A DNA stretch of 64,000 bases from Epsilonproteobacteria bacterium tcs-49 (GTDB lineage: Bacteria; Campylobacterota; Campylobacteria; Campylobacterales; Sulfurovaceae), in contig LLYS01000004.1 of the NCBI GenBank assembly GCA_002049495.1, positions 62,001 to 126,000 of the forward strand. Reading direction: 5' to 3'. Position numbers and translations under genes: made by a program. Below the pieces are notes generated by a model. The model saw only the letters and a program-made list of their open reading frames with translations. It did not search any database and had not been told where the DNA came from. Each line of letters opens with the position of its first letter. The first letter of the stretch is position 1. Positions 15,746 through 42,415 of the stretch are shown here, piece by piece.

Positions 15746-15788
15746 TTGACCTACATCAAAAAAAATTATGGGAAAAAGAGTATATAAT
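15746..15788 (+). promoter_or_regulatory. FNR/DNR-type box and -10 for cytochrome c gene
   Basis: TTGAC-CTAC-ATCAA at 15746-15759 is followed, 23 bp later, by TATAAT at 15783-15788. This puts the box near -41.5 or -42.5, the class II activator position. The target is the cytochrome c gene starting at 15820. It is one of eight such sites in the window. Confidence 0.75.
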
Positions 15789-15819
15789 TGTATTATAATA
15801 ACCATAAAAAAGGATGATT

Positions 15820-16116
15820 ATGAAAAAGGTATTGATAAGTGCGGCAGCGGCGGCACTGATGGCAACGGCCGCGTGTGCGGCAAACGGTCAGGCGCTTTAT
15901 GCCAAATGTGCGGGCTGTCACGGGCCAAAAGGCGGGAAAGTGGCCCTTGGTAACAGTAAGATTATCAAAGATATGAGTAAAGCCGATTTTGTCAATGCGC
16001 TTAAGGGCTACAAAAACGGTACCTACGGAGGAGCGATGAAGGGAGTTATGACCGGTCAAGCTGCGGGACTCAGTGAAGCGGATATGCAAGCGATCGCCGA
16101 TTTCATCGTCAAATAG
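15820..16116 (+). CDS. Small periplasmic class I cytochrome c
   Basis: A mono-haem cytochrome of 98 residues with a signal peptide (residues 1-20, ending ACA) and the haem-binding motif CAGCH. A C-terminal MTGQAAGL stretch probably supplies the axial methionine. It resembles the cytochrome c-553 electron carriers of Campylobacterota. The second of two in-frame ATG codons (15820) is chosen because AAAAAGG directly abuts the first. The FNR-type box upstream suggests it carries electrons for anaerobic respiration. Confidence 0.88.
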   Translation: MKKVLISAAAAALMATAACAANGQALYAKCAGCHGPKGGKVALGNSKIIKDMSKADFVNALKGYKNGTYGGAMKGVMTGQAAGLSEADMQAIADFIVK

Positions 16117-16179
16117 ATTTACTCCCCCTAAAGCCGCGGGTGGATACAATCTGTTATCCCCCCGCCTTAGGATCTGCCG

Positions 16180-16839
16180 ATGATAGTGGATATATTAAAA
16201 AAGATCGATCTATTTCAAAGCGTGAACGAGGAGGAGCTGGAGCAAATCGCCGATTGCAGCACCATCTCAAGCTACGATAAAGACAGTGTGCTATACTATG
16301 AGGCTGAAAGTACCAACCGCCTGCTGTTTTTAACGGAAGGCTTATTAAAAGTATACAAAATAGATAAATATGACAATGAGATATTTCTGTATTATGTGTA
16401 TAAAAATACGATGATCTCCGAACTTTCCAGTTTGGAAAACAATGAGATACACTGCTTTTCCAACGCGGAATTCGCACAGGACAGCAAGATCCTCTCCATC
16501 GGTTTTGAACAGTTCAAAGAGATCTTCATGCACTCGCCGCAGCTTTCCTACGCGTTTTCAAAGGAGTTGATCGCGAAAAACCATCAACTGCAGTGTATCG
16601 TCAACCGCGAACTGGTTTTTGACGCTACCTCCAAAGTGGCGTTTATGCTTTTTAACGATCTGGAGATGTTTAACCAGCTCAAGCGCACCGAAGCGGCCTT
16701 TTTGCTGCATATCCAGCCCGAGACCCTTTCTCGGGTGTTGAAGCGTCTGGTGAGAAACGAAATTATAGAAATTGAAAAGGGAACGGTCGCTATTATTGAA
16801 AAAGAGCGGCTGCAGGCAATCTTTATGGATGTAGGATAG
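16180..16839 (+). CDS. Crp/Fnr-family transcription regulator (DNR/NssR-like, no Fe-S cysteines)
   Basis: A 219-residue regulator with an N-terminal cyclic-nucleotide-like sensor barrel (about 1-115), a dimer helix and a C-terminal winged helix. The recognition helix contains ETLSR (E181, S184, R185), the FNR-type E-x-x-S-R pattern that reads TTGA half-sites. The only cysteines (C26, C92, C139) do not form the FNR cluster motif, so a [4Fe-4S] oxygen sensor is unlikely and a haem/NO-type (DNR, NssR) sensor is more plausible. Its gene is 3 bases from the PilJ-type gene. Eight TTGA-N6-TCAA boxes in the window make it the natural candidate regulator. Confidence 0.88.
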   Translation: MIVDILKKIDLFQSVNEEELEQIADCSTISSYDKDSVLYYEAESTNRLLFLTEGLLKVYKIDKYDNEIFLYYVYKNTMISELSSLENNEIHCFSNAEFAQDSKILSIGFEQFKEIFMHSPQLSYAFSKELIAKNHQLQCIVNRELVFDATSKVAFMLFNDLEMFNQLKRTEAAFLLHIQPETLSRVLKRLVRNEIIEIEKGTVAIIEKERLQAIFMDVG

Positions 16840-16842
16840 ATT

Positions 16843-17832
16843 ATGACAACCAATAAAATCAGTACCAAGATCAAACTGCTCGGAGCGCTGCTTATCGTCT
16901 CCACCTTTACCGTTATCGTGGTTTCGATCATGCTCAATCAAAAAAACGTCAGCGACGCGCTTATTATCAATATCGCAGGGAAAGAGCGGATGCTTTCGCA
17001 AAAGATCACCAAAAGCGTATACTTTCTCAAAAATACGGGAAAAACGGATTTTCGCGAACTCGACGGGGCGATCGAGGATTTTTTGTGGGGGATCAACACC
17101 CTTAAAAACGGCCGGGAAAATTTAAACATCACCCCCGCCCCCACGCAGCAGATACGCGACCAGATCGACAAAGTGCTCAAACTGTGGAAACCGTTTCACG
17201 ACAATGTCGAAACCTTTAAAAAAGCGTTGATAAACGGCAACGAAGAGGTGATTAACCAAACCTTTATGGAAATTTCCCGATCGAACAATACCCTGCTCAA
17301 CGAAATCGACAATATCGTCACCCTCTATACCAACTACACCCGGGAAAAAACCGACTTTATCAAAAACTTCCAGTACGGCGGTTTTACGGTGCTGTTTTTA
17401 CTCGTGGCCTTTTCGATCCTCAAACTCAAACGCATCGAAAGCCACGCCAAGGAGTTTCTCAACAAATCCAAAGAGATCATGCAGCGGGATTTAAACGCCC
17501 CCATCGAACCCATGGATATCGACGGGGAAAACGAGATCGAAGAGGTAGCCAATTCGCTCAACTGCTTTATCGGTAAGGTCAACTCCGCCATGAGTTTTTC
17601 CAAATCCGCCATGGAGCAATCCAAGCAGGCATCGCACAAGCTTGAGGAGCTCACCGAGGAGTTCAGCACGATTATCGACGATCTGCACGATTGCAAAGGA
17701 GTTTCCACCCAGATCGATAAAAGCGAAGATATCATGATCCAATCCTCGGAGGATCTGCTGCGCTCCACCCAAAAGCTTGAAAATCTCAAAAGCGAACTCG
17801 ATGCCCTTTTAAAAAGTTGTAAAAGCCCTTGA
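16843..17832 (+). CDS. PilJ/NarX-type sensor membrane protein without output domain
   Basis: A 329-residue protein with membrane segments at about 11-30 and 178-193 enclosing a helical periplasmic domain. That domain starts with INIAGKERMLSQKI (about 42-55), closely resembling the NarX nitrate P-box and PilJ N-terminal domain. A HAMP-like region and a coiled coil (about 240-325) follow, but there is no methyl-accepting hairpin, kinase or cyclase. It must signal through a partner. It is in one operon with the Crp/Fnr gene. The stop codon lies inside the FNR-type box that serves moaA. Confidence 0.82.
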   Translation: MTTNKISTKIKLLGALLIVSTFTVIVVSIMLNQKNVSDALIINIAGKERMLSQKITKSVYFLKNTGKTDFRELDGAIEDFLWGINTLKNGRENLNITPAPTQQIRDQIDKVLKLWKPFHDNVETFKKALINGNEEVINQTFMEISRSNNTLLNEIDNIVTLYTNYTREKTDFIKNFQYGGFTVLFLLVAFSILKLKRIESHAKEFLNKSKEIMQRDLNAPIEPMDIDGENEIEEVANSLNCFIGKVNSAMSFSKSAMEQSKQASHKLEELTEEFSTIIDDLHDCKGVSTQIDKSEDIMIQSSEDLLRSTQKLENLKSELDALLKSCKSP

Positions 17833-17870
17833 CGCAGGTCAACCCCTCCCGTTATCAAAGCTGTTATCAT
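17829..17870 (+). promoter_or_regulatory. FNR/DNR-type box and -10 for moaA
   Basis: TTGAC-GCAG-GTCAA at 17829-17842 is followed, 22 bp later, by TATCAT at 17865-17870. A second candidate -10, TATAAT, lies at 17873-17878. The leader then carries a GC hairpin (CGGGG paired with CCCCG, 17882-17897) before the moaA ribosome site. The box overlaps the stop of the preceding gene. Confidence 0.72.
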
Positions 17871-17908: not shown

Positions 17909-18880
17909 ATGATGTTGATAGATTCCTTCGAGCGGCGGGTAAACTACCTGCGCGTCTCCGTCACCCAGCGGTGCAACTTCCGCTGCCGCTACTGTATGCC
18001 CGAAAAACCCTTCGAGTGGACGCCCAAAGAGAATATCCTCTCCTACGAGGAGCTGTTTGCTTTTATCAAAGTCGCCATCGACGAAGGGGTAAGCAAGATC
18101 CGCATCACCGGCGGCGAACCCCTGGTCAGAGATGATCTGGACAGCTTTGTCAAAATGATCTGCAATTACGCTCCAAAGATCGATGTGGCTATCACCACCA
18201 ACGGCGTACTGCTTGAGCGCTACGCCAAAGCGTTGGCAAATGCGGGCTTAAAAAGGCTCAACATCTCCCTGGATTCCCTGGAGAGAACCACCTTTCACCA
18301 CCTGAGCAAAAAAGATGCGCTGGAATCTGTATTGAAAGGGATCGATGCCGCTTTACAAGCGGGACTCAAGGTCAAACTTAACAGCGTTATCATCAAAGGT
18401 ATCAACGAGCGTGAAATTCTGCCCCTATACGAGTATGCCAAGTCCCGCGATATGGAGATCCGCTTTATCGAATTTATGGAAAATGAAAGTGCGGATCGCT
18501 CCTTGCGAACCGTCTCCTCCGCCGCTATCATCGAAGCGATCACCGGAAAATACGCCGTGGCCCCTTTACAAAATAAAACCCACAGCGCGGCAAAACCCTA
18601 TATGGATGAAGACGGCTACACCTTCGGCATCATCGAACCTTACGACGACAGTTTCTGCAAAACCTGCAACCGCATCCGCCTCAGTGCGGAGGGGGATCTG
18701 ATCCCCTGTCTCTATTACGAGGATGCGCAGAGTATCAAACCCGCACTGGGTGGCGGCGAGAAGCAGCTGCACTCCGTATTGCACGACGTGGTAGCAAACA
18801 AACCCGAAAAGAATCGCTGGAGTTACCAGGAGGAGCAAAAACAGCTCTCCGCGCGAGCCTTTTACTACACGGGGGGATAG
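17909..18880 (+). CDS. moaA: GTP 3',8-cyclase MoaA (molybdenum cofactor)
   Basis: A 323-residue radical-SAM enzyme that starts molybdopterin synthesis from GTP. The SAM-cluster motif is C22-C26-C29 (CNFRCRYC). The second 4Fe-4S cluster is C250-C253-C267. The chain ends in Gly-Gly, as functional MoaA proteins do. Either of two adjacent ATG codons could be used. The FNR-type box upstream fits the need for molybdopterin when NapA is made. The 3' end overlaps the convergent GGDEF-EAL gene by 16 bases. Confidence 0.95.
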   Translation: MMLIDSFERRVNYLRVSVTQRCNFRCRYCMPEKPFEWTPKENILSYEELFAFIKVAIDEGVSKIRITGGEPLVRDDLDSFVKMICNYAPKIDVAITTNGVLLERYAKALANAGLKRLNISLDSLERTTFHHLSKKDALESVLKGIDAALQAGLKVKLNSVIIKGINEREILPLYEYAKSRDMEIRFIEFMENESADRSLRTVSSAAIIEAITGKYAVAPLQNKTHSAAKPYMDEDGYTFGIIEPYDDSFCKTCNRIRLSAEGDLIPCLYYEDAQSIKPALGGGEKQLHSVLHDVVANKPEKNRWSYQEEQKQLSARAFYYTGG

Positions 18881-21153
18881 GTGTCGATAAAGCGCTCACA
18901 CTCTTTGATACCCAGCGGTTTGGAGTAGAGAAACCCTTGCAAAATATCGGCGCGCAACGCGGTGAGATAGTTTGCCTGGGGTTGCGTTTCCACCCCCTCT
19001 ACGATGGTTTGTAGCGACATATTCCGAGCCATATCCAAAATCGTTTTAACGATCACCTCATCCTCGCGGTCGGTGAGGATATTATCCACAAACACTTTAT
19101 CGATCTTGATATAGTCGATGGGCATCTTTTTCAAATACATCAGCGACGAATACCCCGTCCCGAAATCGTCTATCGCCGTTTGGACGCCGAGCCTGCTGCA
19201 CTCCCCGATAAATTCGCGCATCTTTTCAAAACTGTCCACCAAAGAGTGCTCGGTGATTTCAAAGATCAGATTGTTACAAACCTCCGGTTCCAAGTCGTTG
19301 ATAATCCCCACAATATCGGAATAGAACACTTGCTTTGGCGAAATGTTGACCGAGACGGGGATCTTTTTGTATACGGGGTTATGCTGCCACCTGTGCAGCA
19401 GTGCAATCACCTGTTGCAGCACGCGATCACCGATTTTTAAGATCAGATCCGACTCCTCCGCGATGGGGATAAACATGCCCGGGGCCACCAGATGATCCCC
19501 CTGCCGCCACCGCACCAGCGCCTCAAGACTGTAAACGCGGTTCGCGTGGGGATCGATCTTGGGTTGCAGGTGGATAATAAACTCATCCCTTTCCAGCGCC
19601 TTCTCCATGCTTGTTTGAAACCGCAGCTTCTCAAGCAGTTTTTGCTGGATCCTTTTATCGTAGTAGTGGAACTTGTTCTTGCCGCTGTTTTTGGCTTTAT
19701 ACATCGCCATATCCGCAAACTTGATCAACTCGTCCACGTCATCGGTATCGTCGGGGTAGAAACTGATCCCGATACTGCCGGAGATAGTGTAGTGCATCCT
19801 CTCCAGTTCAAAGGGTTTGGCCAAAATATCCAGAATCTTTTGCGCCAGTACATCCATATCGCTTTTTCGCTCCACTCCTTCGATGATGAAGATAAACTCG
19901 TCCCCGCCCACGCGGCAGATGGTATCGCTTTTTCGCAGCAGTTTTTGCAAAAGCTTCACCACATCCACCAGCAGCCGATCGCCGTAACTATGCCCCAGCG
20001 AATCGTTCACCAATTTAAAATCATCCAGATCCAGATACAAGATCGCGATCGATTTGCCCGTTCGTCTGGCGGCGACCATCGCCTTGTTTAAAATCTCATA
20101 CATCAAATTACGATTGGGGATCTTTGTCAGTGCGTCGTAATTGGCTAAAAAGTTGAGCTGCTTCTGGGTTTCATACTTTTGGGTGATATCGGAGATGATA
20201 CCCACATAGTTGTTTACCGCCCCGCCATTGTCGTAGATGGTAAAGATATCCACCTCCTGGATATATTCCGACCCATCTTTGGCTTTGTTGATCACCTCCC
20301 CGCTGAAGCGTCCCCGCTCCTTGATATCTGCCCACATCTTTTGATAAAACAGCTGGTCATGTTTGCCCGATTTTAAAAAGGAGGGATCCTGCCCGAGAAC
20401 CTCATTTCGCGTGTAGCCCGTGATCTTGCTAAAAGAGGGATTGCAATCGACGATCCTGTTCTCCCTGTCGGTGATGATGATCCCGTCTTTGGTGTGGTTA
20501 TACACCTTCGCCTGCAAAAGGATCTTGCGGTACTGGCGATCCAGGCGCTTGCGGAACACTTCAAACTTCATGCGGATACGATCGATGATGGGACGGGCGA
20601 AAAAATGCGCTTCGAGCAAAATCGTCAGCACCGTCGCCACGTAGATAAACAGCTCCCTGTTTTGCAACTCCCGCGTTTTGGCTTCACTCTCCTTTTGGAA
20701 AAGGCTGACGGCACGGTCCAGGTCGGGCAAAATCTTTTTTGAATAGTTCAAAACCTCGGGCAGCAACGCCGCATCACGGGTTTGCACGTAACGGCGCAGC
20801 AACTCCATGTAGCGTTCTATCCGTTCATTGATCCCGCCCTTTTTAAAATAGAGCTCTTTTGATTGTTTCGTTTTGAGGTTGGAAACGATATAGCCGTAAT
20901 CGGTTTGCAGCGTCTCCATAAGCTTTCGCAGTTCGCTAAGGTAGCGCTGCTTGCCCTCCTTGGCGTGCAGGTGGACGTAAAAAGCGGTTTTTTGCGAAAG
21001 CATCCGCTGCTTGCCGCTGAGATTGATCAGCTTTGCGTAGTAACTTTGCGACTGGATCAGCGAGTGCATGGTGTAGTAGGCAAAGGAAGCCCAGAAGATC
21101 AGCAGTGCAAAGATGAGTGCATAGGATTGCTTCAGCGTCATCGCTTTGAGCAT
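18865..21153 (-). CDS. PilJ-type sensor, PAS, GGDEF and EAL protein
   Basis: A 762-residue c-di-GMP protein. Two membrane segments (about 10-27 and 170-190) flank a periplasmic domain with a P-box-like INLSGKQRMLSQKT (about 43-56). A PAS domain (about 210-330), a GGDEF domain with intact GGDEF and an RxxD inhibitory site, and an EAL domain with EALVRW and DDFGTGYSS follow. Both catalytic halves look competent. The start at 21153 is chosen because CAAGGAG precedes it. The sensor matches those of the gene at 16843 and the kinase at 38812. Confidence 0.93.
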   Translation of the reverse strand: MLKAMTLKQSYALIFALLIFWASFAYYTMHSLIQSQSYYAKLINLSGKQRMLSQKTAFYVHLHAKEGKQRYLSELRKLMETLQTDYGYIVSNLKTKQSKELYFKKGGINERIERYMELLRRYVQTRDAALLPEVLNYSKKILPDLDRAVSLFQKESEAKTRELQNRELFIYVATVLTILLEAHFFARPIIDRIRMKFEVFRKRLDRQYRKILLQAKVYNHTKDGIIITDRENRIVDCNPSFSKITGYTRNEVLGQDPSFLKSGKHDQLFYQKMWADIKERGRFSGEVINKAKDGSEYIQEVDIFTIYDNGGAVNNYVGIISDITQKYETQKQLNFLANYDALTKIPNRNLMYEILNKAMVAARRTGKSIAILYLDLDDFKLVNDSLGHSYGDRLLVDVVKLLQKLLRKSDTICRVGGDEFIFIIEGVERKSDMDVLAQKILDILAKPFELERMHYTISGSIGISFYPDDTDDVDELIKFADMAMYKAKNSGKNKFHYYDKRIQQKLLEKLRFQTSMEKALERDEFIIHLQPKIDPHANRVYSLEALVRWRQGDHLVAPGMFIPIAEESDLILKIGDRVLQQVIALLHRWQHNPVYKKIPVSVNISPKQVFYSDIVGIINDLEPEVCNNLIFEITEHSLVDSFEKMREFIGECSRLGVQTAIDDFGTGYSSLMYLKKMPIDYIKIDKVFVDNILTDREDEVIVKTILDMARNMSLQTIVEGVETQPQANYLTALRADILQGFLYSKPLGIKECERFIDTYPPV

Positions 21154-21191
21154 CAATACTCCTTGCCACAGCACAGGGGCTCCGTTTTTCA

Positions 21192-21560
21192 TCATTGTAC
21201 CATTTTTCTATTATTTTGAGAAAACTCCGCTTCATATATATAAGCCGCAATTTGGCGCAGGGTATCTTTGTCATAGCCCAGCTGGGGCATCACCCCGTAC
21301 CTCTTCACCGCTTTTTCCATCACCGCCGTCCGAGCATCCGGATTTGCTACCCAGCGGGTCATATAGGAGACAAACTCCCTCTTGGCCGGAAAGATCGCTT
21401 TGTAGCGGCTTTGTACGCTGTTGATAGAGGGCGCGGAGAGGGATCTGCCGATCTCGTGGCAGGTAACGCAGTTGCCGTTAAAAAGAAGCTTCGCATACTG
21501 GGTTGATGTTTGTGCACACAGGGGGAAAAAGATCATAAATTTTAGCAGTACCGTTTTCAT
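21192..21560 (-). CDS. Mono-haem cytochrome c, periplasmic
   Basis: A 122-residue protein with a signal peptide (about 1-16), the haem motif CVTCH and later methionines (GVMPQLGYD) that could ligate the iron. It is a class I-type cytochrome but unlike the one at 15820. Its ribosome site is AAAGGATAGATA. An FNR-type promoter about 135 bases upstream (21697-21738) suggests anaerobic expression, giving a leader of roughly 130 bases. Its redox partner is unknown. Confidence 0.85.
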   Translation of the reverse strand: MKTVLLKFMIFFPLCAQTSTQYAKLLFNGNCVTCHEIGRSLSAPSINSVQSRYKAIFPAKREFVSYMTRWVANPDARTAVMEKAVKRYGVMPQLGYDKDTLRQIAAYIYEAEFSQNNRKMVQ

Positions 21561-21655: not shown

Positions 21656-21703
21656 ATGAAAAGTTCTTTCCGCGAACTTCGGGTTTTACAGGAACAATTA
21701 TAA
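21656..21703 (+). CDS. Possible 15-residue leader or mini-ORF with strong ribosome site
   Basis: TAAGGAGGATAA directly precedes an ATG that opens a 15-codon frame (MKSSFRELRVLQEQL) on the strand opposite to the cytochrome c leader. A TATATTATA stretch sits just upstream. Nothing else in this gap is coding. The strong Shine-Dalgarno match is the only support, and it may be coincidence. Confidence 0.25.
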   Translation: MKSSFRELRVLQEQL

Positions 21704-21738
21704 AGTTTTTTTCTCCTAAGAGGTTTGACCTTAGTCAA
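21697..21738 (-). promoter_or_regulatory. FNR/DNR-type box and -10 for the cytochrome c at 21560
   Basis: On the minus strand the palindrome at 21738-21725 (TTGAC-TAAG-GTCAA) is followed 22 bp later by TATAAT (21702-21697), the same class II spacing as the napA promoter. The box overlaps the nrdG stop codon. Confidence 0.75.
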
Positions 21739-25350: not shown

Positions 25351-25737
25351 TTACTGTCCTTTATCCAACTGATCGGCAAACTCTCCGAGGTTTTGCTTCT
25401 TTTTCAAATCCCCGTTGTAAACGATCGTCGTGGGGTCCACATCCTCACGGGCCAGAATTTCGGGAACCGCGTCGTTGTTGTTCATCACCTCCATATTGCT
25501 GTTAAGCTCATCTTCGCTGTACGCCATCTGCATATCCGCCGCCATGACGTTATCGATCTCTTCGATCACGCGAAGCTTTTCAAGCTCCTCTTTGACCCCC
25601 TCGCCCTCGATGGTAACGATCACCCGTCCCTTCTCGTCGTGAAGATGGTAATCACACACGTCGCAGTTTTGCAGATCCTGCACCACCTGTTCTAAATGCT
25701 CCGGTCTTGTTTGTACTACTATGCTTGAAATGTTCAT
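25351..25737 (-). CDS. napD: NapD chaperone of periplasmic nitrate reductase, C-terminally extended
   Basis: A 128-residue protein whose first about 78 residues (MNISSIVVQTRPEHL onward) match NapD, the cytoplasmic chaperone that binds the NapA Tat signal during cofactor loading. About 50 extra acidic residues follow (from about 79), beyond the core fold of the short enterobacterial NapD. Start is at AAAGGAGACAAG-ATG. A repeat-rich stretch of 262 bases separates it from napL. Confidence 0.85.
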   Translation of the reverse strand: MNISSIVVQTRPEHLEQVVQDLQNCDVCDYHLHDEKGRVIVTIEGEGVKEELEKLRVIEEIDNVMAADMQMAYSEDELNSNMEVMNNNDAVPEILAREDVDPTTIVYNGDLKKKQNLGEFADQLDKGQ

Positions 25738-25798
25738 CTTGTCTCCTTTAGTATTTGATCTATCTCTCCTTTTTGCCGGGCAAAGCCCGTCAAAAATT

Positions 25799-25860
25799 CC
25801 TCTCACTTAAGCCTCGCCCTTGGCTCGGCTCCACTGCGAGTAAGCAAAGCTCACTCTCCG
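25799..25860 (-). repeat. Structured repeat element, copy 1 upstream of napD
   Basis: Contains a 50-base stretch (25811-25860) repeated exactly at 25912-25961. On the minus strand it folds as AGCC-GA-GCC-AAG-GGC-GA-GGCT, with CTTAC paired to GTGAG outside, and a GAGTGAGC-TTT-GCTTACTC alternative on the 5' side. A further hairpin (GGGC-TTT-GCCC, 25771-25791) lies between it and napD. Confidence 0.75.
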
Positions 25861-25903
25861 CTTCTATCCTTCTCCTGTTTTTCGCGAACAAAGTCCGCTA
25901 AAA

Positions 25904-25961
25904 CCTCTAAAGCCTCGCCCTTGGCTCGGCTCCACTGCGAGTAAGCAAAGCTCACTCTCCG
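25904..25961 (-). repeat. Structured repeat element, copy 2 between napL and napD
   Basis: An exact copy of the 50-base core at 25811-25860, offset by 101 bases. The outer GTGAG half is lost here. A hairpin with a TTT loop (CGGAC paired with GTTCG) follows in the direction of napD. Confidence 0.75.
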
Positions 25962-25999
25962 TTCCGTTTTGATCCATTTATCCTCTTGTTGCGAGAAGT

Positions 26000-26947: not shown

Positions 26948-27219
26948 GCCTGCGCCTTTCTTTGCTCCTCCATCTCAAGTTCGATCTTTTGAATCTCCGC
27001 CTGGACTTGAAAGAAGTGATCCTGGGTGACGTTATCGTTCTTACTCCATTTCACCTCGATCTCGCCGCCGTATTCAGAACCCATCTCCTCAATCTTGTGT
27101 GCGAAAACCTCCATGTTTTCGCATACCGCCTCTTTGCCGTCAAAGCCGTCGGTTAAGCGTATCTGCCATCCCCCCCGGCCGTTTTCTTCGATATTTGCCT
27201 GAAACTCCACCTTTGCCAT
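26944..27219 (-). CDS. Conserved-context small protein in nap operon, function unknown
   Basis: A 91-residue soluble acidic protein (MAKVEFQANIEENGRGGWQ onward) with a predicted beta-rich first half and a charged helical end. No cysteine motif beyond one C, no signal peptide. It is translationally coupled to napL and follows napF, and is not part of the canonical napAGHBFLD set. I do not recognise the family. Its place suggests a maturation or regulatory part in nitrate reductase assembly. Confidence 0.75.
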   Translation of the reverse strand: MAKVEFQANIEENGRGGWQIRLTDGFDGKEAVCENMEVFAHKIEEMGSEYGGEIEVKWSKNDNVTQDHFFQVQAEIQKIELEMEEQRKAQA

Positions 27220-27266
27220 TTTTTCCTCCTTTTATCTGTTTATTGTCCTCTTTTTTTGATTCATAT

Positions 27267-27755: not shown

Positions 27756-27778
27756 AACCGCTCCTTGTGCATCTTTAA

Positions 27779-27806: not shown

Positions 27807-27810
27807 CTGT

Positions 27811-28467: not shown

Positions 28468-28528
28468 TCTCTCCTACTCAAAAATTACCGATGCGATAAA
28501 AGCACATCTTTAACTTATACGTGTTTTT

Positions 28529-30217: not shown

Positions 30218-33016
30218 TTACGCTTGGTAAATTTTCACCGCACACTTTTTAAAATCCGTCTGTTTGGACATGGGACACGTCGCATCAAGACACACTTTGT
30301 TGATAAATACTTTCTCATCGAACCACGGCACGAACACAAGACCTCTCGGGGGTCTGTTTCTTCCTCTGGTTTCCACTCTTGCTTTGACTTTGCCCCGTCT
30401 GGATTCAACCCAGCACAGACCGCCCTGTTTCAAGCCTTTGTCCTGCGCATCACGGGGGTGCATATAGCACAGCGCTTCGGGAACGGCGCGGTAGAGTTCG
30501 GGTACTCTCATGGTCATGGTACCGCTGTGCCAGTGTTCAAGCACACGCCCGGTACACAACCATGTATCATACTCCGCATCCGGTTTTTCCGGCGGATCCA
30601 TATAGGGTCTGGCAAAGATTTTCGCTTTGTTTTTCAAACTCTTCTTGGTTTTATCGGTAATTCCGGTCAAATTACCCTGCGATAACGCTTTGGCCAGCGT
30701 TCCGTAGAAGGCGAAATCCCCGTAGTTTTCCTTTTTCGCGTAGGGGTCGTATTTGGAGTTGAATCTCCACTGCGTTTCCTTGCCGTCTACAACGGGCCAC
30801 TTCAGCCCACGCACTCTGTGGTAGGTATCAAAATCCGCCAGGTCGTGCCCGTGGCCTCTGCCAAACCACGCATACTCCTCAAACAGGTACTTGTGGATAA
30901 AGAAGCCATACCCCTCAAACACTTTTCCGTCGCTGCCGACCACGTTTCTAAAATCACCGTAGCCCTCAGAGTTGTCGTACCCTCTTTGGATCGGATCGTT
31001 TTGATCAAGCTTGTAACTTCTGGCTTCCTCGTTGGCAAAGAGGATGTCAAACATCGTCGTATCTTCGCTGTAGCCCATCTTTTTGGCTTCGCCGACCACG
31101 TCGGGGAGTTTCACGCCGTTTCGCAGCGTATATCCGCCCCAGAGATCTTTGACCGTAAAGCGCTTTGAAAGTTCTACCCACTGCCAGGTATCACTCATCG
31201 CATCCCCTACCGGGACAACCTGCTGTCTCCAGTGCTGGGTACGTCTTTCGGCGTTGCCGTACGCGCCCCATTTTTCATAGATCATCGCACTGGGCAGTAC
31301 CAGGTCGCTGACTTTTGCCGAGATGCCGGGGTAGCCGTCGGAGGTAACGATGAAGTTGTCCATCTCCCGCGCGGCTTTGATCCAGTGGTGCGCGTTGGCG
31401 CTGTCTTGATAGGCGTTACATACATTCACCCACGCAAACTTCACCACACCGTCTTCGATATCTCTGTGGATCTTCATAATGTGCTGGTTGCCTACGGGGT
31501 TGAGCGTACCGTTGGGGATCTTCCAGCGATCTTCGGTGATCTTTCTGTGCTTGGGGTTTTTGACCATCATATCCGCAGGCAGCCTGTGGGCAAAGGTCCC
31601 GACCTCTCTTGCCGTACCGCACGCGCTGGGCTGACCCGTGAGGGAAAAGGCGCCGCTGCCGGGGCGGGCTTGCTTGTTGAGCATAAAGTGTACATTGTAT
31701 GAAAGGGTGTTTGTCCAGCTTCCTCTGGTGTGCTGGTTCATCCCCATCGTCCAGAAGCTGACCACTTTTCGCCCCTTTTCGATATAGAGGTTCGCCAATG
31801 TCTGCAGCTTTTGCTTAAACTGATCCAAAGGCTCGTCGGGATCACCTTTGGAGATTCTTGCTACATAATCAAGGGTATAGGGTTCAAGGAACCTTTTATA
31901 CTCTTCAAAAGAGATCTCCCAGTGCTTCAAGCCCGCGGGCTTGTTTTCCATCATGTCGCCCTCTTTGTAGCCAAAGACGCTCAATGCCGGCGCTTCCGTA
32001 TCTGAAACCTCTTTTCGCATCTCCTTTCTCAGCGTCTCCATCTCTTTACCGTCATATTTGCCCTGCTGTACCGATTTTTCGTCGGAACGGCGCATACCGT
32101 ACCCCATATTCACCGGTTGGGAAGCGAAAACGATATACTTTTTGACAAAATCCCAATCGATCGCTTCGGGGTGATTGTATACGATCTCTCTTGCGATATA
32201 GTTCCACATCGCCATATCGGTATTTGGCGTAAAGATGATTTCGATATCGGCCAGATCGGAGGTTCTGTGCGTATAGGTAGACATATTGATCACCTTCACG
32301 CGATCGGGATCGGAAAGTTTTCTATCGGTTACACGCGACCACAAAATGGGGTGCATCTCCGCCATATTGGACCCCCAGGAAACCACCGTATCGGTCAATT
32401 CGATATCATCGTAACACCCGGCGGGTTCATCGATACCGAAGGTTTGGTAAAAGCCCACGACCGCACTGGCCATGCAGTGTCTGGCGTTGGGGTCGATGGC
32501 GTTGGAGCGAAAGCCGCCTTTCATCATCTTTTGCGCGGCGTAACCCTCCATCACGGTATACTGCCCCGATGCGAAGACACCCACACCCTCGGGTCCGCTT
32601 GCTTTGAGCGCTTTTTTGATGTGGACCTCCATCTCGTCAAAGGCACGCTTCCAGCTTACGGGCTTAAATTGTCCCTTTTTGCTGAAGTTGCCGTTGTCAT
32701 CCACACGCAAAAGCGGAGTTTTCAGCCTGTCGGCACCATACATAATCTTTGCATTAAAGTAACCTTTGATACAATTGAGCCCTCTGTTTACGGGAGCTGC
32801 GGGGTCACCCTTGACGGCAACGATTCGTCCATTTTTAGTCGCCATCATAATCCCGCACCCCGTACCGCAGAAACGGCACGCAGCTTTGTCCCATCTCCAA
32901 CCGCTTTGCGCCTGCTCTGAGCGCGCTTGAAGCTCACTTGGAACGGACATCCCAACAGCTGCCGCCGCTGAAGCCGCCGCAGAACTCTTGAGAAAATCTC
33001 TTCGTGATACTGACAT
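30218..33016 (-). CDS. napA: NapA, catalytic subunit of periplasmic nitrate reductase
   Basis: A 932-residue molybdopterin enzyme that reduces nitrate to nitrite in the periplasm. The Tat motif SRRDFLK opens the chain. The 4Fe-4S cysteines are C47, C50, C54 and C82 (CRFCGTGCG, then [11 protein letters not shown]). The start at 33016 follows AAAAGGAGAGAAC. It is the first gene of nap A-G-H-B-F-orf-L-D-PAS. An FNR-type class II promoter lies 30-75 bases upstream. Confidence 0.97.
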
Positions 33017-33047
33017 GTTCTCTCCTTTTTTTAGCATATCAGAGAAA

Positions 33048-33089
33048 ATTGTAACAGTATTACAAAGACGATTCCTTGACCTATGTCAA
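33048..33089 (-). promoter_or_regulatory. FNR/DNR-type box and -10 for the nap operon
   Basis: Minus strand TTGAC-ATAG-GTCAA (33089-33076), then 22 bp, then TACAAT (33053-33048). The napA start is 32 bases further on, behind a strong ribosome site. The spacing equals that of the other seven sites within one base. Confidence 0.8.
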
Positions 33090-33132: not shown

Positions 33133-34398
33133 TTAATTACTCTGTGCTTTAGCGCTGTTTTCTTTGTAGACGCGCAGTGCCAGCAAGAGATTGCCGCCGT
33201 GGAGAAGATTAAGCAGGATAAACAGCAAAGCAAGCAGGTAAAAAAACGGCTCTGCACCCAACCAAAGGGTTAGCAAAAACAACCCCAGCCACCCGCAGTA
33301 GAGGTAAAATCCCGCGGCGACTCTTTTTTGCGGGATCATTTCACGCATGGTGGGCACGTCGAAAAAGCCGCGAGCGCTGAGGTGGAACCAGGTGATAAAG
33401 GGGACGATTTTGTACAGCATGGCGCTGATGGTGCCGTAGATAAAGCCAAAGCCCAGCAGCACAAGCGCGTAGCTATTGTCCGTGCCAAACCATACGCTCA
33501 GCCCCCACAGTGCCGACCCCGCGATCAATGATCCCATGGCGACGAAGAAATAGCGCACCGAGAAATCTTTGAGTTTGCGTTTTCTTTTTGCAAGGCGCAA
33601 AATAACGGCCGCGGCGTAGAAACAAAACAGGGCGCTTAACAGCACCGTAAAAAGCGCGGCAAAAGAGACCTGCATCAATACCGCGAGAATAAACAGCACC
33701 AAAAGCGCGGCGCTTACCGTAACCATATCGCTTTTAAAGCGCGGGGAAAAATCCTTGGTAACCCAGAACATGGGGATCACTTGAAAGCTGACGCCCATGA
33801 TCAAAAGTCCCACCCATCCAAAAAACATCGTTACCAGATGCAGCCGCACGAAGTCGGTATAAGTACCGGAAAACTCACCCAAAGCGTGGAAGCTTAGCAG
33901 CATCATCCCTATCAAAACGGAGAAAGCGAGAAAAAGCGTCGCGTAGAAGATGGCGCGCAAAGAGAGGTTGTCGCGGTTTTCCCGAAACAGCCGCCACGCT
34001 ACCAGCAGGGCAAAAAACAGCAGCGTCGCCCCGAGTAAAGCCGCGGCGCCCCACAGCAAAGGTTTGTTATAGAGTAAAAACCCCGCCGCAAAGAGCAGCG
34101 TCCCGAGGTTCAACCCCCCATAAACCATATTGGTCACACGTTTGATATGCGTAAACGTCACGCCGCCGACAACGGGCAAAAATTGAAACACCGCGCCGAT
34201 CATCACCATCATCATAAACCCGAGAGTAAACAGATGAACCAGCGCAATCTGTCCGGGCAGATGCGAAGGGGTATGCAGCACCCCCGCTTCCAGCGCCATC
34301 ACCACCCCCGCCAAAACCGCGTAAAAGGGAGCGGTCAGGAAAAACTTGATCGTACTTTCATAGGGAGGGGCTTGATCCAGACTCAATCCGCTAAACAT
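33133..34398 (-). CDS. NnrS-family membrane protein
   Basis: A 421-residue protein with about 12 hydrophobic helices and scattered histidines (for example HLPGQIALVHLF, LLSFHALGEF and RLHLVTMFFGW), which fit the haem/copper-binding NnrS family tied to nitric oxide tolerance. It is the third gene behind hemerythrin and DUF2249, starting 3 bases after the latter ends, so it falls under the FNR-type promoter at 35117-35158. Confidence 0.87.
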   Translation of the reverse strand: MFSGLSLDQAPPYESTIKFFLTAPFYAVLAGVVMALEAGVLHTPSHLPGQIALVHLFTLGFMMMVMIGAVFQFLPVVGGVTFTHIKRVTNMVYGGLNLGTLLFAAGFLLYNKPLLWGAAALLGATLLFFALLVAWRLFRENRDNLSLRAIFYATLFLAFSVLIGMMLLSFHALGEFSGTYTDFVRLHLVTMFFGWVGLLIMGVSFQVIPMFWVTKDFSPRFKSDMVTVSAALLVLFILAVLMQVSFAALFTVLLSALFCFYAAAVILRLAKRKRKLKDFSVRYFFVAMGSLIAGSALWGLSVWFGTDNSYALVLLGFGFIYGTISAMLYKIVPFITWFHLSARGFFDVPTMREMIPQKRVAAGFYLYCGWLGLFLLTLWLGAEPFFYLLALLFILLNLLHGGNLLLALRVYKENSAKAQSN

Positions 34399-34401
34399 CT
34401 G

Positions 34402-34668
34402 CTACTCCTTTTTTGCCTCCAGGGCTAGGGTCAACTCTCCGCCGTCATCTTCCCAGACGTAGACGATAACCCCCTCACCGGGTTCGATCGTCTTGCTGCA
34501 AAGCCCCTTTTGCTTTAAAATATCGTACAGCTTACACGGCCGCATCCGGTGGGTGATGCGCAGATAGGTGCGATCTCCTACCCGCGGCAGTTCCCGTGCG
34601 ATGCGCATGAGCGGTTCGGGGGCTTCAAGCTCGGATACGTCCAGCTCGATTTGGCGAAAGTTTTGCAT
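34402..34668 (-). CDS. DUF2249 protein
   Basis: An 88-residue soluble protein of the TusA-like DUF2249 type, with the segment LDVSELEAPEPLMRIARELP (about 9-28) and a C-terminal strand-rich part. DUF2249 genes often accompany hemerythrin and NO-metabolism genes. Here it lies between them with a 0-3 base spacing, so it is translationally coupled. Biochemical role unknown. Confidence 0.82.
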   Translation of the reverse strand: MQNFRQIELDVSELEAPEPLMRIARELPRVGDRTYLRITHRMRPCKLYDILKQKGLCSKTIEPGEGVIVYVWEDDGGELTLALEAKKE

Positions 34669-35094
34669 CTACAGCGCTTTCATCTTTTCGATGATCGCTT
34701 CGGAATCCAGTGCGTTATCGGCAAGGGAGTACATGATCTGTTCCTCTTTCATATTGTGCTGCCCCATGACAAAAAGCAGATTTTCCGAATTGCCCAAAAA
34801 CTTCTCTTTGTCTCTGTTTTCGATCGCCTCAGCCATCTGGCGCATAATTGTGCGCATCTGCTCATGCTCCATGATCATAACGCCCGTGGGGTTGCACCCC
34901 TCGCCGCCGCTTTCGTTGAAGGCGGGAAACATCACCTCCTCCTCCATGGCAAAATGCTTGAGCATATGGCCCTCAAAGGCGGCAAACTGCTCCAGCGCTT
35001 CATCCCATTGCTGGGCATCGACACTGCTTTCAAGCTGCGCGAACTCGCCGTCGCACTCCTTGTGATCTGCGCTCATAAATGTGTGAATATTCAT
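34669..35094 (-). CDS. Hemerythrin-domain protein
   Basis: A 141-residue four-helix protein with the histidine/acid pattern of a diiron site: HTFMSADHKECD, FEGHMLKHFAMEEEVMFP, EHEQM and GQHNMKEEQIMY. It could bind O2 or NO, or act in diiron repair like the RIC/YtfE type. It is the first gene of the hemerythrin-DUF2249-NnrS operon, which starts just below an FNR-type box, pointing to nitrosative stress defence. Confidence 0.88.
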   Translation of the reverse strand: MNIHTFMSADHKECDGEFAQLESSVDAQQWDEALEQFAAFEGHMLKHFAMEEEVMFPAFNESGGEGCNPTGVMIMEHEQMRTIMRQMAEAIENRDKEKFLGNSENLLFVMGQHNMKEEQIMYSLADNALDSEAIIEKMKAL

Positions 35095-35116: not shown

Positions 35117-35158
35117 ATCATATACTATTTATATAGTACCCGCATTGACGCAGGTCAA
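35117..35158 (-). promoter_or_regulatory. FNR/DNR-type box and -10 for hemerythrin-DUF2249-nnrS
   Basis: Minus strand TTGAC-CTGC-GTCAA (35158-35145), then 22 bp, then TATGAT (35122-35117). The hemerythrin ATG is 23 bases further on behind AAAAAGGATAG. Confidence 0.78.
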
Positions 35159-37312: not shown

Positions 37313-37354
37313 TTGATACAGGTCAATAAATCTGATCTAATAATTGGCGACAAT
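37313..37354 (+). promoter_or_regulatory. FNR/DNR-type box and weak -10 for the HD-GYP regulator
   Basis: TTGAT-ACAG-GTCAA (37313-37326), then 22 bp, then GACAAT (37349-37354, four of six consensus bases). The response regulator ATG is at 37385. Confidence 0.62.
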
Positions 37355-37384: not shown

Positions 37385-38842
37385 ATGGCACTGCAAAACC
37401 TTTCTATTTTACTGGTTGATGACGAGATGCAGATTCGCCGCCTGCTTTCGCGCTTTTTAAAAAAGCTGTGCGGCGAAGTCTTAAGCGCAAAAAACGGCAA
37501 AGAGGCGCTGGAACTTTTTGAACGCCGCCCCGTCGATATCGTCATTACCGATATCCGGATGCCGGCTATGAACGGGATCGAACTGCTCAAGGCGATCAAA
37601 GCATCCGATCCCGAACAAACGGTGATTCTTTTTTCCGGCTCCAACGATTACGACTTTTTAATAGAGGCGATCAATCTGGGAGCGGACAGGTTTTTCAACA
37701 AACCGCTGGATTTTGACAAACTCCGCTCGGGGTTGGAAAACATCGCCAAAAAACTTTCGGCGCAGAAAGAAAATGCGCAGTACCAAAAGATGATGCAGCG
37801 CCAGTGGGATATGCAGCTGCAAAACTCCAAAGAGCAGCTGCATGAGTTTGAGCAGTACCAGCAGCTGCTGATGAACTCCACCTGTATCAGAAGGTTCGAC
37901 ACAAAGGGAAAGGTCACCTACGCCAATACAAAGCTCGCGCGAAAAATGCGGCGGAAGCCGGAACAGATGTACGGTACCCCCGCATATAAAGACGCCGCAC
38001 GGAAGCAGCGCCCCCTCTCTTTTGAAAAAGTGCGCAGCATCCTCAAACAAAGCCCCCGGTTTCAATCTATCATCGCCCACTCCCGCGAGGGGGATTCCCC
38101 GTTGTACCTTGACAGCTTTATAGCCCCTATCAAGGATCAAAGCGGCGGCATCAAAGAGTTTCTCGAAATCGGCTACGACGTCAGCAGGATCTATTCGCTC
38201 AACCGCCGTATGGAGAAACTCAACGATGAAGTGATCTACCTGTTGGGGTCCGTTGCCGAAAGCCGCTCTATCGAGACGGCTTCCCATCTGCACAGAGTCA
38301 CGGGCTACTGCTCAATTTTGGCAAAATACACCGATATGAGCAAAGAGGAGCGGGAAATTTTTAAACGTGCCGTACCGCTGCACGATATCGGCAAGATCGC
38401 CGTACCAAACCGCATCTTGCAAAAACGGGGCCCCTTAGACGACGAAGAGTTTGAGCAGGTCAAGGAACACACCACGATAGGCCACAATATCCTGTGCAGC
38501 GTAGACAATGATATCTTTACCGCGGCGGCCGATATCGCTTTAAGCCACCATGAAAAATATGACGGCAGCGGTTACCCGCTGGGACTCAAGGGCACCGAGA
38601 TCAGCTTCATGGGGCGCCTCGTGGCTATAGCGGACGTATTTGACGCCCTGACTTCCAAACGCGCTTATAAGAAGGAGTGGGATATTGACCAATCGCTGCA
38701 CATCATAAAAAAAGAGCGGGGATCCCACTTTGATCCGCAGATACACGATCTGTTTTTTGATCATATCGATGAGATTTTAGAGTTCAAACAGCAGATCAGA
38801 GAGGGAAAACTGTGCAGTTTTTTACACCGCCGCTGCAACTGA
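37385..38842 (+). CDS. Response regulator with PAS-like and HD-GYP domains
   Basis: A 485-residue protein. The receiver (1-120) carries the acidic pair DDE and a phosphorylation aspartate in VITDIRMP. A coiled coil and a degenerate PAS domain (about 165-275) follow. The HD-GYP domain has HDIGK and GSGYPLGLKG intact, so c-di-GMP hydrolysis is expected. It overlaps the downstream kinase gene by 31 bases, making a tight two-component pair under an FNR-type box. Confidence 0.93.
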   Translation: MALQNLSILLVDDEMQIRRLLSRFLKKLCGEVLSAKNGKEALELFERRPVDIVITDIRMPAMNGIELLKAIKASDPEQTVILFSGSNDYDFLIEAINLGADRFFNKPLDFDKLRSGLENIAKKLSAQKENAQYQKMMQRQWDMQLQNSKEQLHEFEQYQQLLMNSTCIRRFDTKGKVTYANTKLARKMRRKPEQMYGTPAYKDAARKQRPLSFEKVRSILKQSPRFQSIIAHSREGDSPLYLDSFIAPIKDQSGGIKEFLEIGYDVSRIYSLNRRMEKLNDEVIYLLGSVAESRSIETASHLHRVTGYCSILAKYTDMSKEEREIFKRAVPLHDIGKIAVPNRILQKRGPLDDEEFEQVKEHTTIGHNILCSVDNDIFTAAADIALSHHEKYDGSGYPLGLKGTEISFMGRLVAIADVFDALTSKRAYKKEWDIDQSLHIIKKERGSHFDPQIHDLFFDHIDEILEFKQQIREGKLCSFLHRRCN

Positions 38843-40245
38843 TCCGCCAACTCCGTGACTCCCTTTGCAGCGGTGAAAAGGCAAGCCGAAAGTTGGTGCG
38901 GATGCACCTGCTGGCGTTTGTGATAACGACCTCGGCAATCATCAGCTCCTTTTTGGCGCTGTATTACTTAAGCGGTTTGCAAAAACAGGATGCGCACGTT
39001 ATCAATCTCAGCGGCAAGCAGCGGATGCTGACGCAAAAAACGATCCTGCTTGCGACCAAATACACCTATGTTAAAAATCCCGACGATATGGAAACCCTGC
39101 AGCGGCTGCTGCACCGTATCCATCAAAACGAAACCGTCCTCAGAAAGAGGGCAAACCTGCAACAAAGCCCGCTGCATGGAAAGATCGATCAAAAGATACA
39201 AACCCTCATCCGCTATAAGGAGATGCTGCAAACCTCCGCTCCCTCCCTGAAAATTCTCGCGCGGTTTGAACGGACGGCGCTGGAGCTGCAAAACCTCTTT
39301 GACCGAAGCACGGAGACAAAAGAGCGCGCCCTGGGCCAAAAGATCGAACTGCTGCACAAAGTGCTCCTTCTTACCGCCACCGTCTTGCTGCTGACCGTCG
39401 TCGCGGAGACACTGCTGATCTTTCGCCCCGCTATCTTCGAGATACTTAAACGCACCCAACAGCTGCACACGCTCAACGGGCAGCTGCACAAACGGGTGGA
39501 ACAAGCGGTCGCGCAAAAAAGGGAGCAGGAGCTGCTGCTGATGCAAAAGACCAAAGCCGCCGAAATGGGAGAACTGATCAACAATATCGCCCACCAGTGG
39601 CGCCAACCCATCACCATCGTCAATCTCTACCTCGATTCCGTAGCCGAGGATTTGAAAGAGGGCTCTTTTGATAAAAAAGAGTTGCTGCAGATGCTGCAAA
39701 GTGCCAAGGAGACCATGGGGCACATGTCCGAAACCATCGATGAGTTCCGCAGCTTTTTTCTCCCCGCAAAAACACGGGAGCGATTCAACCTGAAAGACTC
39801 CATCCTCCGTGTTGAAAGGTTGATGCACCACCATTTAAGCTACCTTGATATCGATGTGTGTTACGACTTCAACGAAGGGGATTTTAGCGCATTCGGCCGC
39901 CGCGGGGAGCTGGAACAATGCCTTATGGTCCTGATCAACAACGCCAAAGACGCCATCCTTTCCCGAAGAAAAAACTCAAAACACAAAGGCGGGACGCTGC
40001 TGTTTAGCCTGCAAAAAGACACCGCAGGAACCAGCCTCTCCCTGACCGATGACGGAGGGGGTATCCCCAAGGGGATCGGTTCAAAAATCTTTGAACCCTA
40101 CTTTAGCACAAAAGAGAGTGAAGGCACGGGCGTGGGGCTGTATATGTGCAAAAAGATCATCACCGACCGTTTCGGCGGTGATCTGGTATTTAGCGTGGCA
40201 AACGGTTATACCACCTTTACGATCATCCTTCCGGAGGATCCATAA
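38812..40245 (+). CDS. Sensor histidine kinase with PilJ/NarX-like periplasmic domain
   Basis: A 477-residue kinase. Two membrane segments (about 33-52 and 185-203) enclose a helical domain with the P-box-like INLSGKQRMLTQKT (64-77). The phosphoacceptor helix is NIAHQWRQP (H261), the form common in Campylobacterota, and the ATPase part has DDGGGIPKG and GTGVGLYMCK. It probably controls the HD-GYP regulator with which its gene overlaps. Confidence 0.92.
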   Translation: MQFFTPPLQLIRQLRDSLCSGEKASRKLVRMHLLAFVITTSAIISSFLALYYLSGLQKQDAHVINLSGKQRMLTQKTILLATKYTYVKNPDDMETLQRLLHRIHQNETVLRKRANLQQSPLHGKIDQKIQTLIRYKEMLQTSAPSLKILARFERTALELQNLFDRSTETKERALGQKIELLHKVLLLTATVLLLTVVAETLLIFRPAIFEILKRTQQLHTLNGQLHKRVEQAVAQKREQELLLMQKTKAAEMGELINNIAHQWRQPITIVNLYLDSVAEDLKEGSFDKKELLQMLQSAKETMGHMSETIDEFRSFFLPAKTRERFNLKDSILRVERLMHHHLSYLDIDVCYDFNEGDFSAFGRRGELEQCLMVLINNAKDAILSRRKNSKHKGGTLLFSLQKDTAGTSLSLTDDGGGIPKGIGSKIFEPYFSTKESEGTGVGLYMCKKIITDRFGGDLVFSVANGYTTFTIILPEDP

Positions 40246-40924
40246 ACGACAGCGGTGTTCTTTTCTGTATCCGCTTACGCAGACTCTCTTTAAAGGAGGG
40301 TGCCGCCGCGTTGGAGAAGAGCAGGTTTTTAACTGTTTTTTCATTATCGCTCGGATTTTGAAACGCCCGGGTCGCTTCCATAACGGTGACGGCGATAGGA
40401 GGACGCTGCACCAGATACAACCCGTCCGCGCGGCAGACCACTCCCTCTTGCAAAACCCGCATATACCACCCGGTTTTCCCGCTATCGTAAATATATCTTG
40501 TAAAGCCGCTCTCCTCCCAGCGTTTGGAAATTTTCCAGCAGGGTTTTCGGGGTTGCGTTACTTCAAAAAGCGCGGTTCCGATACGGTAGATATCCCCGAT
40601 ACACACCTGCTCTTCGCTCAGCGTACTGACGGTAAAGTTTTCCCCCAACGCGCCGAAGGGCAGATGGGATCGCTGTAAAAAGCGGCACCAGGATTCGTAA
40701 TGCAGTACGGAGTTGACAAAGATCGCTTTATCCACTCCGCCGTGATGCGCCGTATCGGCGACCTCATCTCCCTCAAGCCCGTCAAACCCCACGTTTAACA
40801 TGCCATCAACGCTCTCTTTAAAAAAAGCGGTGGTCCATTTGGGAGTGACGCAACTGTGTTTTTGCTCTATGGTCTGTACTTTTCCAGTCTGTATCGACAG
40901 TAGCTGCGCTACATTGATTGCCAT
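40223..40924 (-). CDS. MOSC-domain protein (YiiM-like)
   Basis: A 233-residue protein with the YiiM/MOSC pattern: DGLEGDEVADTAHHGG, FGALGENFTV, IGTALFEVTQPRKPCWKI. The conserved cysteine in RKPCWK is the expected Mo-cofactor ligand. YiiM-type proteins reduce N-hydroxylated compounds and confer resistance to hydroxylaminopurine. It has its own FNR-type box next to the hydroxylamine-linked hcp gene, supporting a role against N-hydroxylated stress products. Confidence 0.85.
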   Translation of the reverse strand: MAINVAQLLSIQTGKVQTIEQKHSCVTPKWTTAFFKESVDGMLNVGFDGLEGDEVADTAHHGGVDKAIFVNSVLHYESWCRFLQRSHLPFGALGENFTVSTLSEEQVCIGDIYRIGTALFEVTQPRKPCWKISKRWEESGFTRYIYDSGKTGWYMRVLQEGVVCRADGLYLVQRPPIAVTVMEATRAFQNPSDNEKTVKNLLFSNAAAPSFKESLRKRIQKRTPLSFMDPPEG

Positions 40925-40949
40925 CGGATATTCTCCTTTTCACGGCAAG

Positions 40950-40991
40950 ATCGTAGCAAATTATAAAAAGAAAGGGTTTGATCCGTATCAA
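40950..40991 (-). promoter_or_regulatory. FNR/DNR-type box and -10 for the MOSC gene
   Basis: Minus strand TTGAT-ACGG-ATCAA (40991-40978), a full match to the FNR consensus, then 22 bp, then TACGAT (40955-40950). A TATAAT also occurs 12 bp after the box; at that spacing the box would block rather than activate. Confidence 0.68.
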
Positions 40992-41019
40992 AATCCCCGC
41001 AGAAGATGCGGGGAGGGTT

Positions 41020-42342
41020 TTAGGCGGCTTGAAGAAGTTTTTTCAAATCCTCTTCGGCGTCGCCGGTGAGGTGCAGATTGAAGTGCTGCGCAAGGAAGTT
41101 GAAGATATCCTCGTTGACAAACTGCGGCGGCTTCGGCCCCAGATAGATATCTTGAACACCCAGACTAAACAGCGCCAGCAGAATGATCACCGCTTTTTGC
41201 TCCATCCAGGAAAGCACGATGGAGACGGGCAGGTCGTTGATAGGCGTATCCAGCGCTTCGCTCAGCGCTTTGGCGATCTCGACGGCGCCGTTGCTGTCGT
41301 TGCACTGCCCAAGGTCGATATAGCGGGGGATATCGGTCCCTTCGATATTGCCAAAATCGATATCGTTAAAGCGGAACTTCCCGCAGCTTGAGGTGATGAT
41401 GACGCAGTCTTTTGGCAGGTTTTGCGCCATTTCACGGTAGTAGTTGCCCGCTTTTCCGGGAGCATCGCAACCGGCGATGACGAAAAACTTGCGGATTTTG
41501 CCCTCTTGCAGCGCTTGCAGAATTTGCGGCGCCAAAGTAAGCACGGTTTTGTAGTGGTGTCCGGTGTTGAGTGTGGTATCCGCGTCCCAGCCGTCGGCGT
41601 CTTCACACTGCAGCGTACGCTCGATCAACTCGCTGAAATCGTCGTTTTCGATCTGTGTGGCTCCCTCCACACCCACGATCTTGTAGGTAAAAAGCCGGTC
41701 CAGATAGCCGCAATCTTTTTTAGGAGGTACGATGCAGTTGGTGTTGACTACGAAGGTTCCGGGAAAGTGCTCCATCAGTTTGGCCTGATCGAACCACGCT
41801 TTGCCCACGTTGCCTTTGAGGTGTTCATACTTTCGCAGCTCGGGATAGCCGTGCGCGGGCAGCATCTCGGAGTGGGTGTAGATATTGATCCCCCTGTCTT
41901 TGGTCGCTTCCAGCAGCTTTTCAAGCATCTCCAGGTTGTGGCCGCTGACCAGAATCGCTTTGCCCTCGACCCGGTTTTGCGATACGGTTACGGGCGTGGG
42001 GACGCCGAACTTGCCCGTATGGGCGTTTGAAAGCTTATCCATCACCTCCACGCCCGCGCTGCCCACTTTCATCAGCTGGGCGATGTGGTCTTGGAAATTG
42101 AAATTGACGTTTGTAAGCGTAAAGTACAGCGTCTCGCTCATCACGTCATCGACGCTTTTGGTCTGCGCGGGCTGCAGCTCGTTGAGGTGTTCACGGTACG
42201 CCGACAACCCTTTGAGACCGAAAATCATCGTATCTTGCAATCTGGTTAAATTCTCATCTTTCCCGCAGGTCCCTACCTCGGCGCCGTTGCTGCCGCATCC
42301 GCCCGGGGCACTCATTTCGCATTGGTAACAAAACATACTCAT
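41020..42342 (-). CDS. hcp: Hydroxylamine reductase (hybrid-cluster protein), short class III form
   Basis: A 440-residue hybrid-cluster protein. The N-terminal cysteines C5, C8, C16 and C26 bind a 4Fe-4S cluster, and later cysteines/histidines (HNLEM, NTNCIVPP, GCDAPGK, SSCGKFRFND) bind the hybrid cluster. The length is about 100 residues below E. coli Hcp and fits the class III form missing one helical bundle. Hcp removes NO or hydroxylamine in anaerobes. An FNR-type box lies upstream. Confidence 0.92.
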   Translation of the reverse strand: MSMFCYQCEMSAPGGCGSNGAEVGTCGKDENLTRLQDTMIFGLKGLSAYREHLNELQPAQTKSVDDVMSETLYFTLTNVNFNFQDHIAQLMKVGSAGVEVMDKLSNAHTGKFGVPTPVTVSQNRVEGKAILVSGHNLEMLEKLLEATKDRGINIYTHSEMLPAHGYPELRKYEHLKGNVGKAWFDQAKLMEHFPGTFVVNTNCIVPPKKDCGYLDRLFTYKIVGVEGATQIENDDFSELIERTLQCEDADGWDADTTLNTGHHYKTVLTLAPQILQALQEGKIRKFFVIAGCDAPGKAGNYYREMAQNLPKDCVIITSSCGKFRFNDIDFGNIEGTDIPRYIDLGQCNDSNGAVEIAKALSEALDTPINDLPVSIVLSWMEQKAVIILLALFSLGVQDIYLGPKPPQFVNEDIFNFLAQHFNLHLTGDAEEDLKKLLQAA

Positions 42343-42373
42343 AATTGTCTCCTGATTTTTTATTTCAGGGAGT

Positions 42374-42415
42374 ATGGTATTGGCTTTTCATCTCCTTTGC
42401 ATTGACGCGTATCAA
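42374..42415 (-). promoter_or_regulatory. FNR/DNR-type box and -10 for hcp
   Basis: Minus strand TTGAT-ACGC-GTCAA (42415-42402), then 22 bp, then TACCAT (42379-42374). The hcp ATG is 32 bases further on after CAGGAGACAATT. Confidence 0.77.

Follow-up and report, generated by a model that had tools for sequence, protein, structure and literature searches.

The finding of eight copies of one palindrome, each ahead of a gene start, in DNA that also encodes a Crp/Fnr protein raises the question of whether the copies are activator sites, which protein reads them, and how a nitrate signal could reach that protein. The window (the whole stretch analysed, 64,000 nucleotides) contains exactly eight matches to the pattern TTGAYNNNNRTCAA (TTGAY-N4-RTCAA), all at positions given in a preliminary description and none beyond them; the looser TTGA-N6-TCAA returns the same eight sites (Table 1), and dinucleotide shuffles of the window yield a mean of 0.27 boxes and at most 2. 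Read toward the gene, seven of the eight are followed at 22 bp by a hexamer that matches TATAAT at four or more of six positions, by far the strongest box-to-hexamer offset in the window, and the eighth, at 15746, by TATAAT at 23 bp. This is the spacing first described. Agreement as good never arose by chance, either in 20,000 dinucleotide shuffles or in 20,000 draws of AT-matched genome 60-mers. Three of the eight hexamers, the "several" of the preliminary description, match TATAAT at only four of six positions, and a competing perfect TATAAT lies 30 bp from box 17829 and 12 bp from box 40978. Five of the promoters face the minus strand, and the distance from box to gene start is about 50–66 bp except at 21725, where it is about 164 bp.

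In the class II arrangement known for Crp/Fnr activators, the box is centred at −41.5. We consider it very probable that the boxes are Nss/DNR-type Crp/Fnr sites at class II promoters, centred near −41.5 and accompanied by a weak −10, at which transcription depends on the activator. The start sites predicted in Nitrosophilus labii, 48–49 bp from the initial T of TTGA-N6-TCAA (PMC11539149), fit a centre at this position.

Table 1. Boxes with their −10-like hexamers, and the genes and operons assigned to them, in window coordinates; promoter assignments are predictions.
Feature	Position	Strand	Remarks
Box TTGACCTACATCAA + 23 bp + TATAAT	15746..15788	+	promoter of cytochrome c / regulator / sensor operon
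Small c-type cytochrome	15814..16116	+	first gene of operon; Pfam Cytochrom_C 2.6e-10
Crp/Fnr regulator, Nss/DNR type, 219 aa	16180..16839	+	recognition helix IQPETLSR
Kinase-less NarQ/McpN-like receptor, 329 aa	16843..17832	+	N-box INIAGKERMLSQ; Pfam PilJ 1.5e-15
Box TTGACGCAGGTCAA + 22 bp + TATCAT	17829..17870	+	promoter of moaA
moaA	17909..18880	+	TIGR02666 5.8e-109
PilJ-PAS-GGDEF-EAL cyclic-di-GMP protein	18865..21195	-	N-box INLSGKQRMLSQ; domain and motif match
c-type cytochrome	21192..21560	-	Pfam, weak
Box TTGACTAAGGTCAA + 22 bp + TATAAT	21697..21738	-	promoter of cytochrome c + PilJ-PAS-GGDEF-EAL
nap operon: napA, napG, napH, napB, napF-like, further genes	25351..33037	-	family scan; extent inferred
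Box TTGACATAGGTCAA + 22 bp + TACAAT	33048..33089	-	promoter of nap operon
NnrS-like	33133-34398	-	match just under Pfam cutoff
DUF2249-like small ORF	34402-34668	-	name assigned without family scan
Hemerythrin	34669-35094	-	in 33133..35094 operon
Box TTGACCTGCGTCAA + 22 bp + TATGAT	35117..35158	-	promoter of hemerythrin / DUF2249-like / NnrS-like
Box TTGATACAGGTCAA + 22 bp + GACAAT (4/6)	37313..37354	+	promoter of HD-GYP regulator + sensor kinase
Receiver-PAS-HD-GYP regulator + PilJ histidine kinase (at 38812)	37385..40245	+	kinase N-box INLSGKQRMLTQ
MOSC-domain protein	40223..40924	-	Pfam 8.9e-32
Box TTGATACGGATCAA + 22 bp + TACGAT	40950..40991	-	promoter of MOSC gene
Hcp (hybrid cluster protein)	41020..42342	-	TIGR01703 1.6e-160
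Box TTGATACGCGTCAA + 22 bp + TACCAT	42374..42415	-	promoter of hcp

Pattern searches and retrieved stretches place 30 boxes in the 2.22-Mb genome, 8 of them in this 27-kb part of the window. A TA..AT hexamer at 22 or 23 bp accompanies seven of the eight window boxes versus 3 of the 22 elsewhere; the preliminary description had named an equal frequency of box and −10 pairs in coding regions as the result that would count against it, and the genome-wide check found no such equality. That many of the boxes outside the window fall within open reading frames is what one would expect if the boxes were chance palindromes with no regulatory role, a reading contradicted by the way the boxes cluster, by their constant spacing and by their recurrence throughout the order; we regard it as exceedingly improbable. 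The three outside boxes with the right spacing lie before a second Crp/Fnr operon (C3:34041), before petABC (C10:75756) and at C16:28918, which was discarded as a target because it is inside an open reading frame of a methyltransferase/ACP region and probably arose by chance. Ahead of the petABC (bc1) operon a box is followed after 23 bp by TATCAT (L055 5757-5835), and petA has a correctly spaced box in 5 of 30 genomes, the present one included (4 of the 29 others). A box also lies before ccoN (cbb3 oxidase; L056 3848-3861, C11:3848), but the hexamer 23 bp beyond it matches a −10 poorly; 3 of 30 genomes have a ccoN box, and just one of the 29 others combines it with TA..AT at 22 bp. The boxes reach past nitrate and NO to the bc1 operon and possibly to the cbb3 oxidase.

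The same layout is observed in relatives. When named genomes were searched with the regulator profile, 80 loci were recovered, almost all of them Arcobacter-like or Sulfurimonas-like, in which box-to-TA..AT offsets peak at 22 bp (62, versus about 3 for each other offset, range 0–11); control palindromes in these loci are rare and have no spacing peak. Boxes before napA carry TA..AT at 22 or 23 bp in 32 of 40 cases, and a box followed at 22 bp by TANNAT is present in 50 of 60 relatives' genomes, the backward control being nearly absent. So clean a promoter signature is unusual and provides a motif that can be searched for across the Campylobacterota.

As the preliminary description had it, the targets (cytochromes c, moaA, nap, hemerythrin-nnrS, the HD-GYP regulator, MOSC and hcp) form one coherent class II activator regulon. 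In itself the regulon is of a known type, Nss/DNR class II activation, extended to a large target set. Read from the sequence, the Tat start of napA is at about 33016. Three window proteins, encoded in three of the box operons, carry the PilJ/N-box nitrate-receptor motif, and their departures from the N-box consensus are Ala to Ser or Gln to Glu. At 440 aa Hcp is a short protein: its family model matches only from position 121 on, after an N-terminal Cys motif, so that it lacks a stretch of the usual N-terminal part, as short-type hybrid cluster proteins do. Divergent from hcp is a dCache-PAS-GGDEF gene (43152-45032), which shares the region with the regulon's other cyclic-di-GMP genes. Taking the locus as a whole, we think it likely that it comprises an activator regulon together with a receptor-regulator unit.

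Which protein reads the boxes? The most likely binder of all eight, judged from sequence, is the regulator encoded at 16180. Pfam families PF00027 and PF13545 match it above cutoff and assign it to the Crp/Fnr superfamily (cNMP-binding fold and Crp-type HTH), and the best PDB match of its family is DNR (3dkw, 1.5e-17). The boxes had been labelled FNR/DNR-type; given this match and the recognition helix IQPETLSR, the DNR half of the label is sound, and the FNR half must be dropped, since the regulator has no N-terminal Cys cluster. For the same reason we rejected an Fe-S FNR oxygen sensor, for which the NCBIfam Fnr model scores 19 bits versus a cutoff of 228. Because the regulator belongs to the operon behind box 15746, it is probably autoregulated through that operon, and an activator that bound the eight boxes, its own operon promoter among them, would set up positive feedback. 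At 11 of the 80 named loci a box lies no more than 250 bp ahead of the regulator gene; the feature is thus not universal.

That a single activator serves the regulon, as first proposed, is no more than one possible reading, because the genome encodes a second, distant Crp/Fnr protein (C3:32755-33378) with the motif MAPETLSR, behind its own perfect box and a TATAAT at 22 bp. Its operon (L054 7746-9013) includes an FmdE-like protein, a name given from the sequence, with no family match in the scan. From the common PETLSR motif, both Crp/Fnr proteins could bind the same boxes, the second perhaps in response to NO. It is conceivable that the second protein is the main reader of the boxes, or that both read them, leaving the 16180 regulator as one of two overlapping inputs; we rate this slightly below an even chance. 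Besides the motif and the promoter of the second operon, it draws on the report that in Wolinella the same enzymes answer to several Nss proteins (PMC6682613) and on the many relatives that have box+22+TANNAT promoters and no paired regulator, whereas the 16180 regulator sits within the cluster and its clade adjoins nap in many relatives. We continue to favor the 16180 protein as the principal reader.

The gene that follows the regulator, starting 3 bp downstream of it, bears on how nitrate might be perceived. Its product combines a PilJ domain with two apparent transmembrane helices and ends in a coiled coil. In the PDB the family profile matches PilJ, McpN (6gcv) and NarQ, the first ten Foldseek matches of its AlphaFold model (mean pLDDT 80.6, the tail being less certain) are McpN or NarQ fragments, and in the Pfam scan only PilJ passes cutoff, with no histidine-kinase domain found. 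The published N-box consensus is [IVL]-[ND]-x-A-G-x-Q-R-M-L-[ST]-Q, whose Arg binds nitrate in McpN (PMC6381276); the receptor departs from it at one position (Q to E) and retains the key Arg, and many relatives match it exactly. The Arg is kept in most family members, and we infer that the receptor may bind nitrate. In one sub-clade (L018, L132, L143, L144 and similar) the N-box is degenerate, INEQKAFTQ being an example, which suggests that the ligand there may differ from nitrate.

Regulator and receptor genes are paired with great regularity. Among the first 30 relative loci, the receptor gene lies directly downstream of 12 of 12 regulators of one type and 0 of 18 others, and the paired regulators occupy one side of a single branch (support 100/99). 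An open reading frame directly follows the regulator at 79 of the 80 named loci and is nearly always the same receptor, a few being truncated at a contig end. A survey of 150 genomes from the order found 52 strong receptor matches, of which 51 immediately follow a regulator of this Crp/Fnr clade, the gaps ranging from −8 to +32 bp; six clade members (in G068, G093, G161, G117 and G140, and one copy in G102) have no adjacent receptor. In 48 named loci the retrieved flank includes napA, which as a rule comes right after the receptor gene, roughly 1.2 kb from the stop of the regulator. No fused gene for regulator and receptor was found, and apparent fused long frames in G066 and G105 proved to be separate genes.

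Adjacency of two genes is not by itself proof that their products touch. Conceivably the receptor is cotranscribed with the regulator and nothing more, its own influence being on chemotaxis or on another kinase, for instance the N-box histidine kinase at 38812; its two-helix, coiled-coil build does resemble that of chemoreceptors, and that kinase belongs to the same regulon. We consider this unlikely: the window receptor has no MCP signalling domain and MCPsignal matches weakly in only 3 of 31 family members, the receptor pairs strongly with one Crp/Fnr clade rather than with that kinase (receptor matches in 77 of the 80 named loci versus N-box kinase matches in 6), and family members share a conserved cytoplasmic end. 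We prefer to suppose that the periplasmic NarQ/McpN-fold receptor touches the regulator at the membrane and in this way, without phosphorylation, informs it of nitrate, a proposal to which we assign about an even chance. The odds seem to us equally balanced for its generalization, that a kinase-less NarQ/McpN-type receptor directly controlling a Crp/Fnr activator, with no phosphorelay, is a unit widespread in the Campylobacterota. The conserved pair is, in any event, a concrete candidate for nitrate sensing by Nss-type regulators. We found no mention of it in the searchable literature; the original Nss paper (2016), which is outside that scope, may mention it.

Several characterized systems resemble parts of this one. 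Pseudomonas aeruginosa DNR, a heme-mediated NO sensor, is the closest solved structure to the 16180 regulator, and an FNR-type box is common to both. In Nitrosophilus labii a Crp/Fnr gene likewise lies upstream of nap, and the box begins 48–49 bp from predicted start sites (PMC11539149), as expected here; the target set is larger here, including the cyclic-di-GMP genes, moaA and hcp. NssA, NssB and NssC of Wolinella succinogenes are likewise, according to reviews, Campylobacterota Crp/Fnr activators of nap and other N-oxide genes that use TTGA-N6-TCAA, and it is to this Nss family that we assign the present system by its TTGA-N6-TCAA at the class II position before nap in a member of the same phylum. 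Unlike the regulator described here, the Wolinella proteins have no receptor partner mentioned in those reviews, and how Nss regulators sense nitrate was described as unexplained in a review from 2021. Campylobacter jejuni NssR is also a Crp/Fnr activator, of nitrosative-stress genes; it recognizes TTAAC-N4-GTTAA (PMC1274295), and its sites were not found before nap (PMC8139620). With the NarX and NarQ kinases and the McpN chemoreceptor, finally, the receptor shares the periplasmic nitrate-receptor fold and the N-box, but it has neither a kinase nor a chemoreceptor signalling domain and is encoded together with a Crp/Fnr regulator. If our proposal is correct, the link from receptor to regulator would be unlike that of NarX and NarL, nitrate being sensed without a phosphorelay, and the receptor-regulator pair, if functional, would be the new element in an otherwise familiar regulon.
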